Shown here piece after piece: positions 3,220 through 14,038 of a DNA stretch of 64,000 nucleotides. Source of the DNA: Leptotrichia sp. oral taxon 498 (GTDB lineage Bacteria > Fusobacteriota > Fusobacteriia > Fusobacteriales > Leptotrichiaceae); contig NZ_CP016753.1 of assembly GCF_002240055.1 (NCBI RefSeq), positions 496,001 through 560,000 of the forward strand, in the 5' to 3' direction. The notes under the pieces were generated by a model. The model did not search any database, was not told the DNA's origin, and saw only the letters and a list, made by a program, of their open reading frames with translations. How positions within the stretch are numbered: the stretch's first letter is position 1; every line of letters starts with the position of its first letter. Made by a program: the position numbers and the translations under genes.

Positions 3220-4317
3220 CTAATATCCCATTATTTCTTTTCCAACGTTTCTTATATTCAATGCCGCATTGTAATCTCTATCAATTTCAATTCCACAACA
3301 CTCACATTTATAACTTCTTTCTAATAATTTCAGTTCCTTTTTAATATTTCCACATTTACTACAAGTTTTCGACGACGGAAACTACTTATCTATCTTCAAA
3401 AATTGTTTCCCTAAAAACATCAGTTTATACTCAAGCATCTTCAAAAACATTCCCCATCCATTATCTCCTGCACTTTTCCCAAAATTTAATGCCTGGCTCA
3501 TCCCTTTCATATTCAAATCCTCAACAACCACGGCATTATAATCTTCAGATAATTTTTTCGATAATTTATGCAAAAAATCTCTTCGACAATTTTTGATATA
3601 CTCATGCAATCTTGATATTTTCTCTTTTTGTCTATACCAATTCTTAGAAAATTTCACTTTTCTTGACAATGATTTCTGTAATTTCTTCAATTTTTTCTCC
3701 AGCATCCTAAAATATCTTGGATAATCAGCCCTTTGGTTTTCAGAACTGACAAATAATTCAGGCATTGAAAAATCAAGCCCAATTACTTTATCGCTACTTG
3801 GTATTTTTTGAATTTCTTTTTCAAATTCCGCCAAAACAGAAACATAGTAATTTCCATTACTGTTTGTCAATGTTACCGACTTTATTCCGTAATCCTTCGG
3901 TATTTCTCTATGATATTTCAATTTTACTTTTTTCAATTTTGGCAAAACCAAATATTTGTTTTCCTCAATTCGTATCGAATTGTTCACACAATTTGTCATA
4001 TAACTTTTAACACTATTCTTTTTAGATTTGAACCTTGGAAACTTTGCTCTCTTCTGAAAAAAATTCGTAAACGATCGTTTTACATTCAATTGAGCATTTG
4101 AAAGTGCCAGACTGTCAACTTCTTTCAAAAATTGATTTTCACTTTTCAAACTGGCAGGTGTAATTATTTTATTTTTTCCAGTTTCTTCATAAATTTTATT
4201 AGCAGTATACAAAATTGTATTGTAAACAAAACGAACACATCCAAAAGTCTTGTTTATCAACAATTCCTGCTCCTTATTTGGATAAATTCTGTATTTGAAT
4301 GCTAAATTATATTTCAT
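3220..4317 (-). pseudogene. tnpB: TnpB RNA-guided nuclease, interrupted by an amber stop at codon 312
   Basis: The frame is 366 codons long, the same length as the intact copy at 26347-27444, with no indel. Codon 312, TGG (Trp) in the other copy, is TAG here (3382-3384). The first 311 residues include the RuvC-I Asp (IGLDFSMPELF) and the RuvC-II Glu (VVVEDLNMKG). The stop removes the four-Cys zinc ribbon (CSKCG...CECCG) and the RuvC-III segment IDRDYNAALNI, which are still encoded downstream at 3220-3381. The truncated product should lack nuclease activity. A few substitutions separate the two copies. The gene begins 3 bp after the tnpA stop with an AAAGGAGGTG site. Confidence 0.9.
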
Positions 4318-4320
4318 AAA

Positions 4321-4719
4321 TTACACCTCCTTTTGATTTTGAATATATTTTTTAATTATCTCTAACGGTGCACCTCCAACACTTACAACTAAGTAACTTC
4401 TACTCCAAAAATATTCTTTCCACAATCTTCCCCTTATTTCAGGAAATTCTTTTTTTATCAACCTGCTGGAAGCACTTTTGTAAGTATTTACAAACTTAGA
4501 AAGTTCAGTATTAGGCATAGCATTAATCGACATATGAATATGATCAATATCATGTTCCCATTCTTTAAGAACAATGTTATACTTCGGACATATTTTTTCA
4601 AAAATCTCTTTCAATCTATTAGAAATTTCATCATTAATGACTTCTCTTCGATACTTTATACAAAAAATCATATGATAATTTATATCAAATACTGAATGAT
4701 AATTGCTATTATATGACAT
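4321..4719 (-). CDS. tnpA: IS200/IS605-family Y1 transposase TnpA
   Basis: A 132-residue single-strand DNA transposase of the HUH superfamily. The HUH motif is His60-Ile-His62 (in IDHIHMSI) and the catalytic tyrosine is likely Tyr125 (KKYIQNQ). Length and motifs are typical of a functional IS200-type TnpA. Its last codons overlap the ribosome binding site of tnpB. It is the only tnpA in the window, so it may act in trans on the tnpA-less copy at 26 kb, whose ends match. Confidence 0.93.
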   Translation of the reverse strand: MSYNSNYHSVFDINYHMIFCIKYRREVINDEISNRLKEIFEKICPKYNIVLKEWEHDIDHIHMSINAMPNTELSKFVNTYKSASSRLIKKEFPEIRGRLWKEYFWSRSYLVVSVGGAPLEIIKKYIQNQKEV

Positions 4720-4755
4720 TATTATTACCTACTTTTATATTATTTCACTGAGTAA

Positions 4756-4784
4756 ATTATATCATAAATATATCCTTTTTTCAA
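4756..4784 (-). promoter_or_regulatory. Internal promoter of IS copy 1
   Basis: Minus-strand TTGAAA (4779-4784) and TATAAT (4756-4761) are separated by 17 bp, inside the left end and upstream of tnpA. The same promoter occurs in copy 2 at 26251-26279. Confidence 0.7.
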
Positions 4785-4889
4785 TTTTTTTTACAAAAAA
4801 AAGCAATTTATCTCCCACTTGTAGAAAGCCTACGACTTCTTGCTATCTTTTATTAAATAAAGAAATAAAAATTTTTATTAGATTATAGA

Positions 4890-5816
4890 TTATATATTTC
4901 TCAAAACTATTTCTACAATATCTTTCGCTCTCAACTTGTAATTATCAAGCATTGTTTCACCATCGGCACTTTGTCCAAATTCGTCATTAATTCCGTGTTT
5001 TATAACTTTTGTTGGATAATTTTCTGATAAAAATTCTGACACGGCACTTCCAAGTCCTCCGATTACTGAGTGTTCTTCACTTGTTACGACAAATTTACAT
5101 TCTTTTGCGGCTTTTAAGATTGCTTCTTCGTCTAGTGGCTTGATTGTTGAAACATTGATTACTCTTGCTTTGATTCCTTGTTCTGCCAATTGTTTTGCAG
5201 CTTCGGTTGCTTCGTAAACCATTAATCCAGTTGCTAAAATTGCTACATCATTTCCTTCTGTAAGTGTTTTTGCTTTTCCAATTTCAAATTTGTAACTATC
5301 GTCAAATAACACAGGGATATTTAATCTTCCCAATCTTATGTAAACAGGCCCTTCGTATTTTGCAGCTGCAAAAATCATTTGTTCAGTTTCCACTGCGTCT
5401 GCTGGACATAAAACTGTTATTCCTGGAACCACACGCATTAATGCAATATCTTCTACCGATTGATGTGAAGCTCCGTCTTCTCCCAATGAAACTCCTGCGT
5501 GAGTGGGACAAATTTTTACATTTAATTTAGGATAAGCCACGCTATTTCTAATCTGGTCGTATGCTCTTCCCGCTCCAAAAAGTGCGAATGTTGAAGCAAA
5601 AGGTATTTTTCCAGTTGTTGCAAGTCCAGCTGCAGTTCCTATCATATCAGCTTCTGCAATTCCTACATTTATATGTCTATCTGGAAATTCTTTTTTAAAA
5701 AACGCTGTCATTGTCGATTTTGACAAATCCGCTTCCAACACTACTATATTTTCATTTTCTTTTCCTAATTTTACCAAAGCTTCCCCATAAGCCTGTCTTG
5801 TTGATTTTTTTTTCAT
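4890..5816 (-). CDS. Transketolase, C-terminal subunit
   Basis: A 308-residue protein matching the pyrimidine-binding plus C-terminal domains of transketolase. Motifs seen are NVGIAEADMIGTAAGLA (pyrimidine-domain Glu), a HAGVSLGEDGASHQSVEDIALMR stretch around residues 105-130, and a C-terminal domain with VINVSTIKPLD. It pairs with the separate N-terminal subunit encoded 12 bp upstream. Together they transfer two-carbon ketol units in the pentose phosphate pathway using thiamine diphosphate. The ATG follows AGGAGGG. IS copy 1 lies just beyond its stop. Confidence 0.93.
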   Translation of the reverse strand: MKKKSTRQAYGEALVKLGKENENIVVLEADLSKSTMTAFFKKEFPDRHINVGIAEADMIGTAAGLATTGKIPFASTFALFGAGRAYDQIRNSVAYPKLNVKICPTHAGVSLGEDGASHQSVEDIALMRVVPGITVLCPADAVETEQMIFAAAKYEGPVYIRLGRLNIPVLFDDSYKFEIGKAKTLTEGNDVAILATGLMVYEATEAAKQLAEQGIKARVINVSTIKPLDEEAILKAAKECKFVVTSEEHSVIGGLGSAVSEFLSENYPTKVIKHGINDEFGQSADGETMLDNYKLRAKDIVEIVLRNI

Positions 5817-10669: not shown

Positions 10670-11395
10670 ATGAAAATACACTTTATATTACACGAAACAT
10701 TTGAAGTCCCAGGAGCTTATCTTGCTTGGGCAGCAATTTCTGGACACGATGTCACAATGACAAAAGTCTATCAAGATGAAAAGTTACCTGAAAATGCCGA
10801 TTCATTTGATTTTCTAATAATAATGGGAGGTCCTCAAAGTCCAATTGGAGATAATAGCGAGTTTCCTTATTTTAATCCAAAAGATGAAATTGATTTGATT
10901 AAAAAGGCTATAAAAGCTGATAAATACATAGTTGGAGTTTGTCTTGGAGCTCAACTTTTAGGAGAAGCCTATGGTGGAACTACAGAAAAAAGCCCTTCTT
11001 GCGAAATTGGGAATTTTCCAATTGAACTAACCGAAGCTGGATTGGAAGATGAAAATATTAAACATTTTGGAAAACAAGCGACAACAGGACATTGGCACAA
11101 TGATATGCCAGGACTTCCTGATACAGCAAAAGTTTTAGCAAAAAGTAAAGGGTGTCCACGACAAATTATAAAATACAGCAAAAAGCACTACGGCTTTCAA
11201 TGTCATCTTGAATTTACAAAAAAAGTTGCAGAATTACTAATTGATTCAGATAAAGATCTTGAGAAGAAAAGCCAAACTTTACCTTATGTTCAATCACCTC
11301 AAACAATCCGTGATAACGATTACAATGAGATGAATAATCTTCTTTATGAATTTTTGGATAATCTTACAAGAGAAGAGAATAAAATAAAAATATAA
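10670..11395 (+). CDS. Class I glutamine amidotransferase-like protein
   Basis: A 241-residue protein of the GMP-synthase-like type 1 glutamine amidotransferase group. The triad is visible as Cys91 (GVCLGAQLLGEAYGG), His179 and Glu181 (GFQCHLEF). The ATG at 10670 is preferred over an upstream TTG because AAAGGAG precedes it at the right distance. Such stand-alone proteins hydrolyse glutamine or gamma-glutamyl compounds. No synthase partner is encoded nearby, so the acceptor is unknown. It is divergent from tmcAL and has its own promoter. Confidence 0.85.
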   Translation: MKIHFILHETFEVPGAYLAWAAISGHDVTMTKVYQDEKLPENADSFDFLIIMGGPQSPIGDNSEFPYFNPKDEIDLIKKAIKADKYIVGVCLGAQLLGEAYGGTTEKSPSCEIGNFPIELTEAGLEDENIKHFGKQATTGHWHNDMPGLPDTAKVLAKSKGCPRQIIKYSKKHYGFQCHLEFTKKVAELLIDSDKDLEKKSQTLPYVQSPQTIRDNDYNEMNNLLYEFLDNLTREENKIKI

Positions 11396-11428
11396 AAAAT
11401 CAGATTTATTTAAAATATTTTTTAAACC

Positions 11429-11456
11429 TTGTTTTTATACTATTTTAGGGTATAAT
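11429..11456 (+). promoter_or_regulatory. Sigma-70 promoter of the 11505 gene
   Basis: TTGTTT (11429-11434) and TATAAT (11451-11456) with a 16-bp spacer, between the amidotransferase stop and the next start. Confidence 0.65.
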
Positions 11457-11504
11457 TATAACAAATAAAAGTAATCTAAAATAGGAAATTCAGGAGGTTT
11501 TGTT

Positions 11505-12350
11505 ATGATAAAAAAAATATTTTTTTTAATTTTTATAATATTTTGTTTTAATATTTTTTCTAATACAGATTACAGTACGTCTGATTCTAATTCTGACGTT
11601 TCAGTTTCAGAGCAAAGTACTTCTGATTATGATTCTACTAATATTAGCTCAGACTACAAAACTTCTGATTCTAGTGATAGTATTGGTGTTGTAATTCTAA
11701 TTCTGATTTTTCTTATACCGCTATTTGATTCTAAGCCTAATGTTAAACCTAATGTAGATTATAATGTTTTTGTAATTTTAGATAATAACACAACTACAAA
11801 TGTTGAAAATATTTCAAAAAAATTAAAAGAGAATGGAATTGAAAGCCTTTATGAAAAAAAATATATAATACAATTAACACTTTATCTTACAAAATATAAT
11901 ATGAATAATTTACATAAAATTAAGGAAATCATTGAAAAAATTGCAAATCAGACAAAATCTTTCAATGTAGAGTTTTACAGGTTGAGAAAAACAGATAGAA
12001 AATTACTTGTACTAGATGCTAAAAACAATGAAAATATACAACAACTAGCAGATGAAATTACAGTCAATCTGACTAAATATCATGCAAAAAATATAAATGT
12101 TCCTAATTGGATAAAATATATTCCAGAAAGAGAAAAACTTTTCAAGTTATACGGTTCGTCAGATGTATTTACAAATTTTGAACCATATATACCTTTACTT
12201 TCTCAAGTAAATTTATCTCAAATACAATCGTTTATTTCAAAATATAATTTTAATCCATTTAAATCCAAAGCTATTGGTATCGGAATCGCTCAAGTTGACG
12301 ATTTAGGACAAGCAAAAAATATAATTTATTCAGTAAAATTTAAAAAATAA
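11505..12350 (+). CDS. Membrane protein with degenerate 2H-phosphoesterase-like domain
   Basis: A 281-residue protein of no certain family. It has a hydrophobic N-terminus (residues 4-19), a Ser/Asp/Thr-rich linker (20-58), a second membrane segment (60-75), and a soluble domain from about residue 84. That domain reads like a 2H phosphoesterase/LigT fold: VFVILDNN..., then QLTLYLT (123-129) where H-x-T-L is expected, and FEPYIPLL (225-232) where F-x-P-H-x-T-L is expected. Both catalytic His are replaced, by Gln123 and Tyr228, so it would be inactive or binding-only. ATG after AGGAGG. A thioredoxin-like gene follows 15 bp downstream. Confidence 0.6.
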   Translation: MIKKIFFLIFIIFCFNIFSNTDYSTSDSNSDVSVSEQSTSDYDSTNISSDYKTSDSSDSIGVVILILIFLIPLFDSKPNVKPNVDYNVFVILDNNTTTNVENISKKLKENGIESLYEKKYIIQLTLYLTKYNMNNLHKIKEIIEKIANQTKSFNVEFYRLRKTDRKLLVLDAKNNENIQQLADEITVNLTKYHAKNINVPNWIKYIPEREKLFKLYGSSDVFTNFEPYIPLLSQVNLSQIQSFISKYNFNPFKSKAIGIGIAQVDDLGQAKNIIYSVKFKK

Positions 12351-12365
12351 AAAAGCGAAAATTGT

Positions 12366-12674
12366 ATGAAAAGACTTGGAAACTATGAGGAAATACTAAA
12401 TAAAATAAAAGAAGAAAAATATTTTTTATTATATGTTTCAATAAATAATTGCAATATTTGTCAGATTGATATGCCAAAAGTTGAGAAAATTGTTAATGAA
12501 CAAAATTTTACTGCTTATCATATCGAAGCATCTGAAATTCCTGAAGCTGTTGGACAATTAAGCCTATTTTCAGTCCCAGTAGTTATTCTATTTTATGAAG
12601 GCAGGGAGATACATAGACAGGCTAAAATCATTGATTTTGATGAATTAAATTATAGAATGGAACAGATTACGTGA
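12366..12674 (+). CDS. Thioredoxin-like protein
   Basis: A 102-residue thioredoxin-fold protein with an active-site-like Cys29-Asn-Ile-Cys32 motif and the conserved cis-proline at Pro71 (SVPVVILFYEGRE). The canonical WCGPC context is lost: the residues before the first Cys are Asn-Asn. It has no signal peptide. It starts 15 bp after the stop of the 2H-like gene without a strong ribosome binding site, so translation may be coupled. Role: probably a cytoplasmic thiol-disulfide reductase or disulfide sensor. Confidence 0.8.
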   Translation: MKRLGNYEEILNKIKEEKYFLLYVSINNCNICQIDMPKVEKIVNEQNFTAYHIEASEIPEAVGQLSLFSVPVVILFYEGREIHRQAKIIDFDELNYRMEQIT

Positions 12675-12698
12675 AAATAAATAAATTAAAAGAGAACG

Positions 12699-12739
12699 GG
12701 TATGTAATATTTGAGGTTTATACAAATTTATTACATACC
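12699..12739. terminator. Inverted repeat between convergent genes (possible terminator)
   Basis: A perfect 11-bp inverted repeat (GGTATGTAATA / TATTACATACC) with a 19-nt loop lies between the convergent thioredoxin-like and esterase genes. It lacks a clear T-run, so termination is only a guess. Confidence 0.4.
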
Positions 12740-12769
12740 TGTCATACCTTTTAAATAAACATTTTCTTC

Positions 12770-14038
12770 CTATTTTCTTTTCACCGAATTTCTTTTCTGC
12801 CTGAATAACCATTCCATGGCAGGTTTCATATAATATGCGTGCTGCCAGGTGTAACGATGATTTCCATTTTTATAGACTGTATAATAAATATTATACTGAC
12901 TTGATATCTTACTTTGAACTTCTTTATTTATTTCATTCTGGTTTTTTTCTGCATCAATAGTCATTCTTTGTACTTTTGCTCCATTTTTTTCCAAATAGTC
13001 AGATATTTCAGTCAAACTTGGATAAGCTCCAGGATCTCCTTCAGAAGCTACAAACCATATATTCTGGTCTTTCATTGGCTCTGTTACATTTATGTCCCAT
13101 TTACTCGCAACAATATATGAACCGCCAAATAAATCAGGATATCTTGAATCCAATGAAATGGAAGACATACCACCCATTGATTGTCCTGTATTGTAAATTC
13201 TGTCTTTATCTATCGAATATTTTTCAGTCAGGTCATTTATCAGCTCAACTGTTCTGTCCAGTTCAGGACCGTATTCATAATTATCATTTACCGTTACTAC
13301 TTCATATTGCGGTGCCAGCACAAAACTTGGATGCTTTTCCTGCCATTCAGGAGTTGCCCAGACTGTAGCTCCATTTCCCTGACTTAATGTATATTTCGTT
13401 TCTGGTGATACTGCTCCTGCATCATGCATAAATACAACCAACGGATATTTTCTAGATGGGTCATAATTTTTAGGTATATACAGATTATATTTTAAAGTTT
13501 TTCCATCTTTCCTGGTAAACTCAAATTGTTTGAAATTTTCTATTATTAATTGCCTAGTTTTTGTTGAAACCTGTTTTTCTTCAGGAAGATATACTTTTCC
13601 ATCTATATTTCGTATATTTCCTATCTGAGTTACTTCTGCTGTAATTATTTCCAGCGGTTTTGGATTCCCCTTACCTCCCAAGATAGGACCTTTTTGTCCT
13701 GTAGCTTTCTTTTTTTCAATATCTTCCTTTGAATGATCACTTGCCTGTGCTACCATTGGAAGTCTTTTAAGCTCTAAAATTACATATTTTCCAGCCTTTG
13801 ATTTTTTCCCATTTTTTTCATTTTGTTTACTTACATAAACTTTTTCAATATCTCTTCCTTCAACCTTATAATCTGAAGCTGAAACTGAATTTCCAAGAAT
13901 TTCCTTGTCATATGTCAACACAACAGCTGATAGTTTTTCCCCATCTCCAAACGTCTCTGTTACAGCTTCTACATTTTTTATATTTCCTGCAAAAGATAAG
14001 CTTGCAATTCCCAATCCTAATACCATTTTCTTAAACAT
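12770..14038 (-). CDS. Secreted esterase with Ig-like N-terminal domain
   Basis: A 422-residue exported protein: signal peptide (residues 1-17, ending ASLSFAG), an Ig-like beta domain (about 20-150, with AVVLTYDKEILGNSVSASDY), then an alpha/beta-hydrolase domain of the prolyl-oligopeptidase/PHB-depolymerase type (YNLYIPKNYDPSRKYPLVVFMHDAG). The nucleophile elbow is GQSMGGMSS, and a C-terminal NGNHRYTWQHAY supplies the likely histidine. The layout resembles EstA-type esterases with an N-terminal Ig-like domain. The substrate is unknown but probably an ester or small polymer outside the cell. ATG follows GGAGGA. Confidence 0.8.
   Translation of the reverse strand: MFKKMVLGLGIASLSFAGNIKNVEAVTETFGDGEKLSAVVLTYDKEILGNSVSASDYKVEGRDIEKVYVSKQNEKNGKKSKAGKYVILELKRLPMVAQASDHSKEDIEKKKATGQKGPILGGKGNPKPLEIITAEVTQIGNIRNIDGKVYLPEEKQVSTKTRQLIIENFKQFEFTRKDGKTLKYNLYIPKNYDPSRKYPLVVFMHDAGAVSPETKYTLSQGNGATVWATPEWQEKHPSFVLAPQYEVVTVNDNYEYGPELDRTVELINDLTEKYSIDKDRIYNTGQSMGGMSSISLDSRYPDLFGGSYIVASKWDINVTEPMKDQNIWFVASEGDPGAYPSLTEISDYLEKNGAKVQRMTIDAEKNQNEINKEVQSKISSQYNIYYTVYKNGNHRYTWQHAYYMKPAMEWLFRQKRNSVKRK

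Follow-up and report, generated by a model that had tools for sequence, protein, structure and literature searches.

A gene at positions 11505 to 12350 (+ strand) of a 64,000-nucleotide stretch of the Leptotrichia sp. oral taxon 498 genome (NZ_CP016753.1, positions 496,001 to 560,000; hereafter the window) encodes a protein that resembles 2H phosphoesterases and carries other residues in place of both catalytic histidines. The locus raises the question of how such a protein arose and whether it has been kept for a role that needs no catalysis. A preliminary description of the sequence had suggested that it could sense nucleotides or RNA at the membrane, with a thioredoxin-like partner.

Gene layout and membership in the 2H superfamily

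The open reading frame, alignment and tree identified the window gene as a complete B-type 2H paralogue of 281 amino acids. It is preceded on the same strand by TATAAT (11451..11456) and AGGAGG (11492..11497), both common to the upstream regions of the two homologous genes, A and B, of the sister genome G006. A consensus promoter scan of 11380-12800 returned 11 promoter-like sites versus 12.0 expected and did not pick out this TATAAT, so it is taken as a putative promoter from its conservation only.

The protein begins with a signal-peptide-like segment (residues 1-19; 11505..11561, + strand), predicted from alignment and hydropathy and also present in A copies. It is followed by two elements found in B copies only: an acidic linker rich in Ser, Thr, Asn and Asp (residues 20-59; 11562..11681, + strand; shorter in three B copies) and a second hydrophobic segment, the predicted membrane anchor (residues 60-74; 11682..11726, + strand). 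These four residue types make up 78% of the linker, which holds 9 acidic residues and 1 basic residue; mean hydropathy is 2.75 for residues 5-19 and 3.31 for residues 60-74. The two hydrophobic segments and Ser/Asp-rich linker of the preliminary description were thus confirmed by hydropathy and composition, and membrane anchoring stands as a prediction. The remainder is the 2H-phosphoesterase-like domain (residues 84-281; 11754..12347, + strand), recognised by homology, alignment, Pfam matches of relatives and Foldseek. A domain search of the window protein found no effector domain.

When the window protein was scanned alone against Pfam, it matched DUF1045 (E = 0.0035) and 2_5_RNA_ligase2 (E = 0.0072), both weakly and below the curated cut-offs. 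Among 13 family members scanned, matches were obtained to 2_5_RNA_ligase2 (PF13563) in all 13 at E ≤ 1 (best 5.2e-10), to DUF1045 (PF06299) in all 13 (best 4.7e-9) and to LigT_PEase (PF02834) in 11 (best 1.5e-8), and the A-type protein of locus L030 exceeded the cut-offs of all three Pfam 2H families. The window protein is 58-68% identical to intact members from its genus, G019 and G040. These matches of relatives, together with the high identity, show the domain to be homologous to 2H domains.

With the window protein as query, homologues were found in 14 of 40 relatives' genomes and in 16 of the family's 33 genomes, both counts including the window genome, and a distant one in G097 (E = 8.8e-34). 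A single-sequence scan of genome contigs returned one locus only. The scan of the phylum gave matches at E ≤ 0.001 in 20 of 98 genomes, 17 of which were counted as homologues. Matches in G054, G075 and G076 (E = 1e-4 to 5e-4) were dropped, as they cover only the N-terminal model positions 1-83; the loci L049 and L050 show proteins of other kinds, and short extra matches in G002, G003 and G008 (model positions 2-55) were left out of the count. No match was found in the phage sequences searched, and among the plasmid records searched homologues occurred only in two Novosphingobium records.

A profile search of the PDB matched 2fyh (E = 0.0035), titled as a 2'-5' RNA ligase-like protein. AlphaFold models built from three-sequence alignments reached a mean pLDDT of 43.9 for the window protein and 40.8 for the second; Foldseek was run on the former only. 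The first 26 PDB matches of this model were 2H-type by title, with TM-scores of about 0.5 and 1vdx as the best (E = 1e-3); among the titles were YjcG, Arabidopsis cyclic phosphodiesterase, ASCC1, LigT, Usb1, AKAP18 and others. The closest solved structures are thus E. coli LigT, B. subtilis YjcG and archaeal 2'-5' RNA ligase-like proteins, with at most 18% identity to the window protein; LigT is described as having both HxT motifs (PMC5283653), unlike the window protein. In the comparison with LigT/CPDase folds that the preliminary description had called for, 2H structures were matched first, and these first 26 matches gave no sign of an unrelated fold. Because the model is poor, the fold is assigned from sequence homology, with Foldseek as supporting, not decisive, evidence. 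The window protein is a homologue of the 2H superfamily and, lacking both H-x-[T/S] motifs, is not one of its catalytic members.

Loss of the catalytic residues

Translation of the gene gave Gln123 (codon 11871-11873, in QLTL) and Tyr228 (codon 12186-12188, in YIPL), as previously stated. The alignment comprised all 21 full-length homologues found, of which 16 are A-type, without the linker, and five are B-type. Histidine occupies both motif columns in 19 of the 21; Gln and Tyr occur only in the window gene and the 98% identical B copy of G006. The replacement of both catalytic histidines was thereby borne out, and the alignment shows these to be the true motif columns, which ruled out a chance resemblance to H-x-T-L. 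As to whether Gln and Tyr are conserved in orthologues, they are shared by this pair, and the other 19 sequences have His.

The first motif reads Q123-L-T125 (11871..11879, + strand), and Thr at the last of these positions is found in 21/21 sequences. In the second, Y228-I-P230 (12186..12194, + strand), the residue two after the histidine column is Thr in 18 sequences, Ser in one and Pro in two, the latter being the window gene and the G006 copy. T230P is therefore a third catalytic loss, not mentioned in the earlier account, and three of the four catalytic residues are gone. In the first alignment, the dead pair breaks eight of the 57 columns that are invariant in the 16 other sequences, three of the eight being catalytic (hypergeometric P = 0.007), and keeps the other 49. 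The three intact B copies break 19 of the 81 columns invariant among A copies, no catalytic position among them. A pseudoenzyme is described as lacking conserved catalytic motifs by sequence (PMC10211241), and the window protein, with its catalytic motif lost and the domain otherwise conserved, falls under this definition.

The consequences can be gauged from CNPase, for which H230Q is reported to leave about 1% of kcat/KM, and H309Q, H230Q/H309Q and T311A no measurable activity (PMC4643303). The window protein is altered at all three equivalent places, and by this analogy it is almost certainly catalytically dead; the earlier reading of the domain as non-catalytic agrees with these losses. 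Could other residues have taken over catalysis? Thr125 is kept throughout the family, and catalytic residues may have migrated in some pseudoenzymes (PMC10211241). Since single equivalent changes in CNPase leave about 1% of kcat/KM or nothing measurable and three of four residues are lost here, we regard a surviving enzyme as very improbable.

A membrane sensor of nucleotides or RNA, whose inactive 2H groove would bind ligands of the cyclic or 2'-5' kind, would agree with the 2H-type domain, and inactive relatives of enzymes in another superfamily (TIR/DrHyd/SLOG) have been described as nucleotide sensors (PMC9503650). The HxT motifs of 2H proteins, however, themselves hold the phosphate (PMC5283653); with Q, Y and P in place, this clamp is gone, and CNPase H309Q and H230Q/H309Q are reported as unable to trap nucleotides (PMC4643303). 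The sensor reading loses support because all three of the CNPase-equivalent places are changed. It is further weakened by the restriction of Gln and Tyr to one lineage (2/21), which points to a recent loss, not to a long-kept sensor design, and by the lack of an effector domain in the protein and of a dedicated partner gene. We consider such a sensor unlikely; the protein should instead be folded, dead and a poor binder of nucleotide phosphates, judging from its residues and the CNPase mutants.

A described parallel is the mouse CNPase double mutant H230Q/H309Q (PDB 4wbi, PMC4643303), a membrane-associated 2H protein that is folded but dead. It was engineered and carries the His-to-Gln change twice, whereas the window gene has Gln and Tyr plus the Thr-to-Pro change. 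In the literature searched (a limited library, mostly titles and abstracts), no report was found of a natural 2H domain with both histidines lost or of this Leptotrichia gene. Within this limited search, the dead, anchored form appears to be new; the 2H superfamily itself is already known.

Duplication, probable retargeting and recombination

The A-type paralogue is exemplified by L030 2910-3563 (Leptotrichia sp. oral taxon 879 F0557), and A copies of the genus are 66-68% identical to the window protein over the domain. It shares with the window gene a signal-peptide-like start and similar upstream sequence, and differs in having HLTL...HITL and neither linker nor second hydrophobic segment; A proteins should therefore be secreted and active. 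The intact B-type paralogues (G002, G005 and G011; L030 4001-4792) have the linker and the second segment and share a clade with the window gene, but carry HVTL...H[VI]TL, a shorter linker and a diverged C-terminal tail. In the tree, the five B copies form one clade (UFBoot 100), which splits into the dead pair (100) and the three intact copies (100); support among the genus A copies is low. Because three B copies keep H-x-T twice and the dead pair is nested in the B clade, the linker and the anchor predate the loss of catalysis.

Gene neighbourhoods suggest what A may do. In three related genera (G014, G018 and G045), the A gene immediately follows a gene for a secreted class B acid phosphatase, identified by PF03767 in G014 (E = 7e-20) and G045 (E = 1e-19) and by sequence likeness in G018. 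The A genes of G019 and G040 lack this neighbour, as do the genus loci read, and the acid phosphatase family has no match above cut-off in the window genome. In L032 (G045; 4158-5536) and L014 (G014; 1498-2921), the phosphatase gene is followed by a slightly overlapping secreted 2H gene, possibly a two-step nucleotide salvage operon. In Novosphingobium, PAP2 phosphatase and NUDIX genes adjoin the gene of the homologue, and an S1/P1 nuclease gene is close by. The protein of Novosphingobium resinovorum, annotated as 2'-5' RNA ligase family protein (WP_231958405.1), is about 34% identical to the A protein and 26% to the window protein; it has a hydrophobic start like the latter and, unlike it, an intact HVTL...HLTL. 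Its locus in N. resinovorum (L068, 2938-6412) is on the conjugative megaplasmid pSA2. From these neighbours we infer that A would serve the salvage of nucleotides from outside RNA through a nuclease, a 2H enzyme and a phosphatase.

We put a probability of roughly 60% on the following reading: the window gene encodes a catalytically dead, membrane-anchored protein whose paralogue is a secreted 2H phosphoesterase, and it arose by duplication, retargeting, active-site loss and recombination. Ancestor A would have been a secreted 2H protein, which probably opened the 2',3'-cyclic phosphate on nucleotides or short RNAs so that an exported phosphatase could act on them. It would then have been duplicated within the genus, and copy B would have gained the acidic, Ser-rich linker and the second hydrophobic segment. 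With this segment as a barrier to export, the domain would remain at the inner membrane, probably on its cytoplasmic face, its active site still intact. One lineage would next have lost H123, H228 and T230 and kept the fold. In the window genome, finally, the B body would have recombined with an A-type tail and A been lost, so that the dead copy alone was left; exchange and deletion are placed in this order by inference.

The proposed retargeting fits hydropathy and charge bias: the N-terminus carries KK, the linker is acidic, and the domain has 29 basic and 20 acidic residues. The window protein is thus probably N-in/C-in with its domain on the cytoplasmic side of the inner membrane, and the A protein would be outside it.

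The recombination is evident at the nucleotide level. Over residues 84-257, the window gene matches the B gene of G006 at all but 1 of 522 nt. Over residues 258-281, it differs at none of 72 nt from the A gene of G002 and at 12 of 72 from the G006 B gene; this recombinant tail, with the stop codon, spans 12276..12350 (+ strand). The upstream side is the B leader, 97.8% identical to G006 over 11410-12361, and the downstream side is the thioredoxin gene of the A side. The window gene is therefore a B-type body joined to an A-type tail, its last 24 codons being identical in DNA to those of the G002 A gene. Divergence from G006 is much higher in the neighbouring pflA (2.9%) and pflB (3.7%) than over residues 84-257, with their single difference in 522 nt, and a recent exchange between the two lineages is the likely cause.

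The locus order in G002, G005 and G011 is amidotransferase, A, thioredoxin, B, pflA; in the window it is amidotransferase, window gene, thioredoxin, esterase, pflA. A family profile search of the window genome found no copy besides the window gene, and neither a PF13563 match over cut-off nor a PF02834 match was obtained there. An intact copy of the 2H protein is absent from this genome.

The esterase (12770-14038, - strand), between the thioredoxin-like gene and pflA, has an EstA Ig-like N-terminal domain (PF18435, E = 4e-26) and was not seen at the corresponding place in G002, G005, G006 or G011. Between the A and dead B genes of G006 (L019, 2965-11208), a TnpB-type gene stands beside a shortened thioredoxin-like gene, along with a 1085-aa autotransporter-looking protein and a small lipoprotein-like gene, all named by eye.

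The joining of B body and A tail accounts for the neighbour that had been proposed as a partner. The thioredoxin-like gene (12366..12674, + strand; 102 aa, CNIC motif) starts 15 bases behind the stop of the window gene; its Pfam Thioredoxin match (E = 7e-5, 23.2 bits) is just under the cut-off of 23.5. Of 18 genomes whose loci were examined, 11 have a thioredoxin gene there, and these 11 all belong to the genus, which is represented by 13 genomes. The gene immediately follows A in nine sister genomes (G001, G002, G003, G005, G006, G007, G009, G010 and G011), is fused to the amidotransferase gene in G004, is shortened beside the TnpB-type gene in G006, and is missing behind the orthologue of the dead gene in G006. 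Its place after the window gene results from the joining of the A-type tail, together with the DNA downstream of that tail, to the B body. Its adjacency was confirmed, but synteny ties it to the A locus and rules out a dedicated pair.

Retention or decay of the dead copy

The 2H family is dispensable here, as three sister genomes show. In G003, the A gene is interrupted by a stop in the signal-peptide frame and a ~90 bp insertion with inverted ends; in G004, A is deleted and the amidotransferase and thioredoxin-like genes are fused in one frame; G012 is without the entire block beside pflA. The window gene could likewise be a redundant copy decaying at a recombination-prone locus, its catalysis lost under relaxed selection and no stop yet acquired. 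The dead state goes back to one event in one lineage, and the eight amino acid differences between the two dead copies lie in the linker (four) and the recombinant tail (four), in agreement with decay. Two genes of the UshA/CpdB type in the window genome (G000) could, moreover, supply the activity (PF02872 over cut-off twice; TIGR01390 below cut-off), so that the loss of A would be tolerable. Leptotrichia is marked + in both columns of a table, taken here without its column headings, in a paper comparing ushA-like and cpdB-like genes (PMC10454023).

The insertion in G003 (L008, ~2090-2230, - strand) resembles a small non-autonomous element, with the frame resuming behind it; no copy of its end sequence was found in the window. 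The fusion in G004 (L066, 6400-7431, - strand) is a single open frame of 343 aa.

Against decay, the open reading frame, ribosome-binding site and TATAAT of the window gene are intact, and the domain keeps most otherwise invariant columns, as described above. Its pairwise dN/dS to A copies, about 0.3 (0.27-0.34), lies far below 1 and is not above that of intact B copies (0.24-0.37); as these averages include branches before the loss, they cannot show selection after it. Between A copies of different genera, dN/dS is 0.10-0.12. The two dead copies differ over residues 84-257 by one synonymous and no non-synonymous change, a comparison of two sequences only. We hold decay to be a possibility to be taken seriously, though not the one we favour, and it and a retained non-catalytic role come close together.

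If the protein has been retained as a dead, anchored paralogue, any role it still has would be non-catalytic, most likely binding to another protein at the membrane, or else a minor residual function. We advance a more specific proposal tentatively: after duplication of a secreted phosphodiesterase acting on RNA ends, a new linker and anchor would have moved the copy to the cytoplasmic face of the inner membrane, where it would later have become a scaffold or regulator without catalysis and, in one lineage, taken the place of the active enzyme.

The window gene is an enzyme relic rather than a proven new sensor, and alone it opens no long-standing question. It draws attention to secreted 2H proteins associated with exported phosphatases, a group that has been little described. 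It also provides a clean example of a bacterial pseudoenzyme formed by duplication, then retargeting, then active-site loss, with all intermediates present in sister species of one genus; since sister genomes still carry the ancestral form, the retargeted but intact form and the dead form, the succession from retargeting to loss can be read directly.
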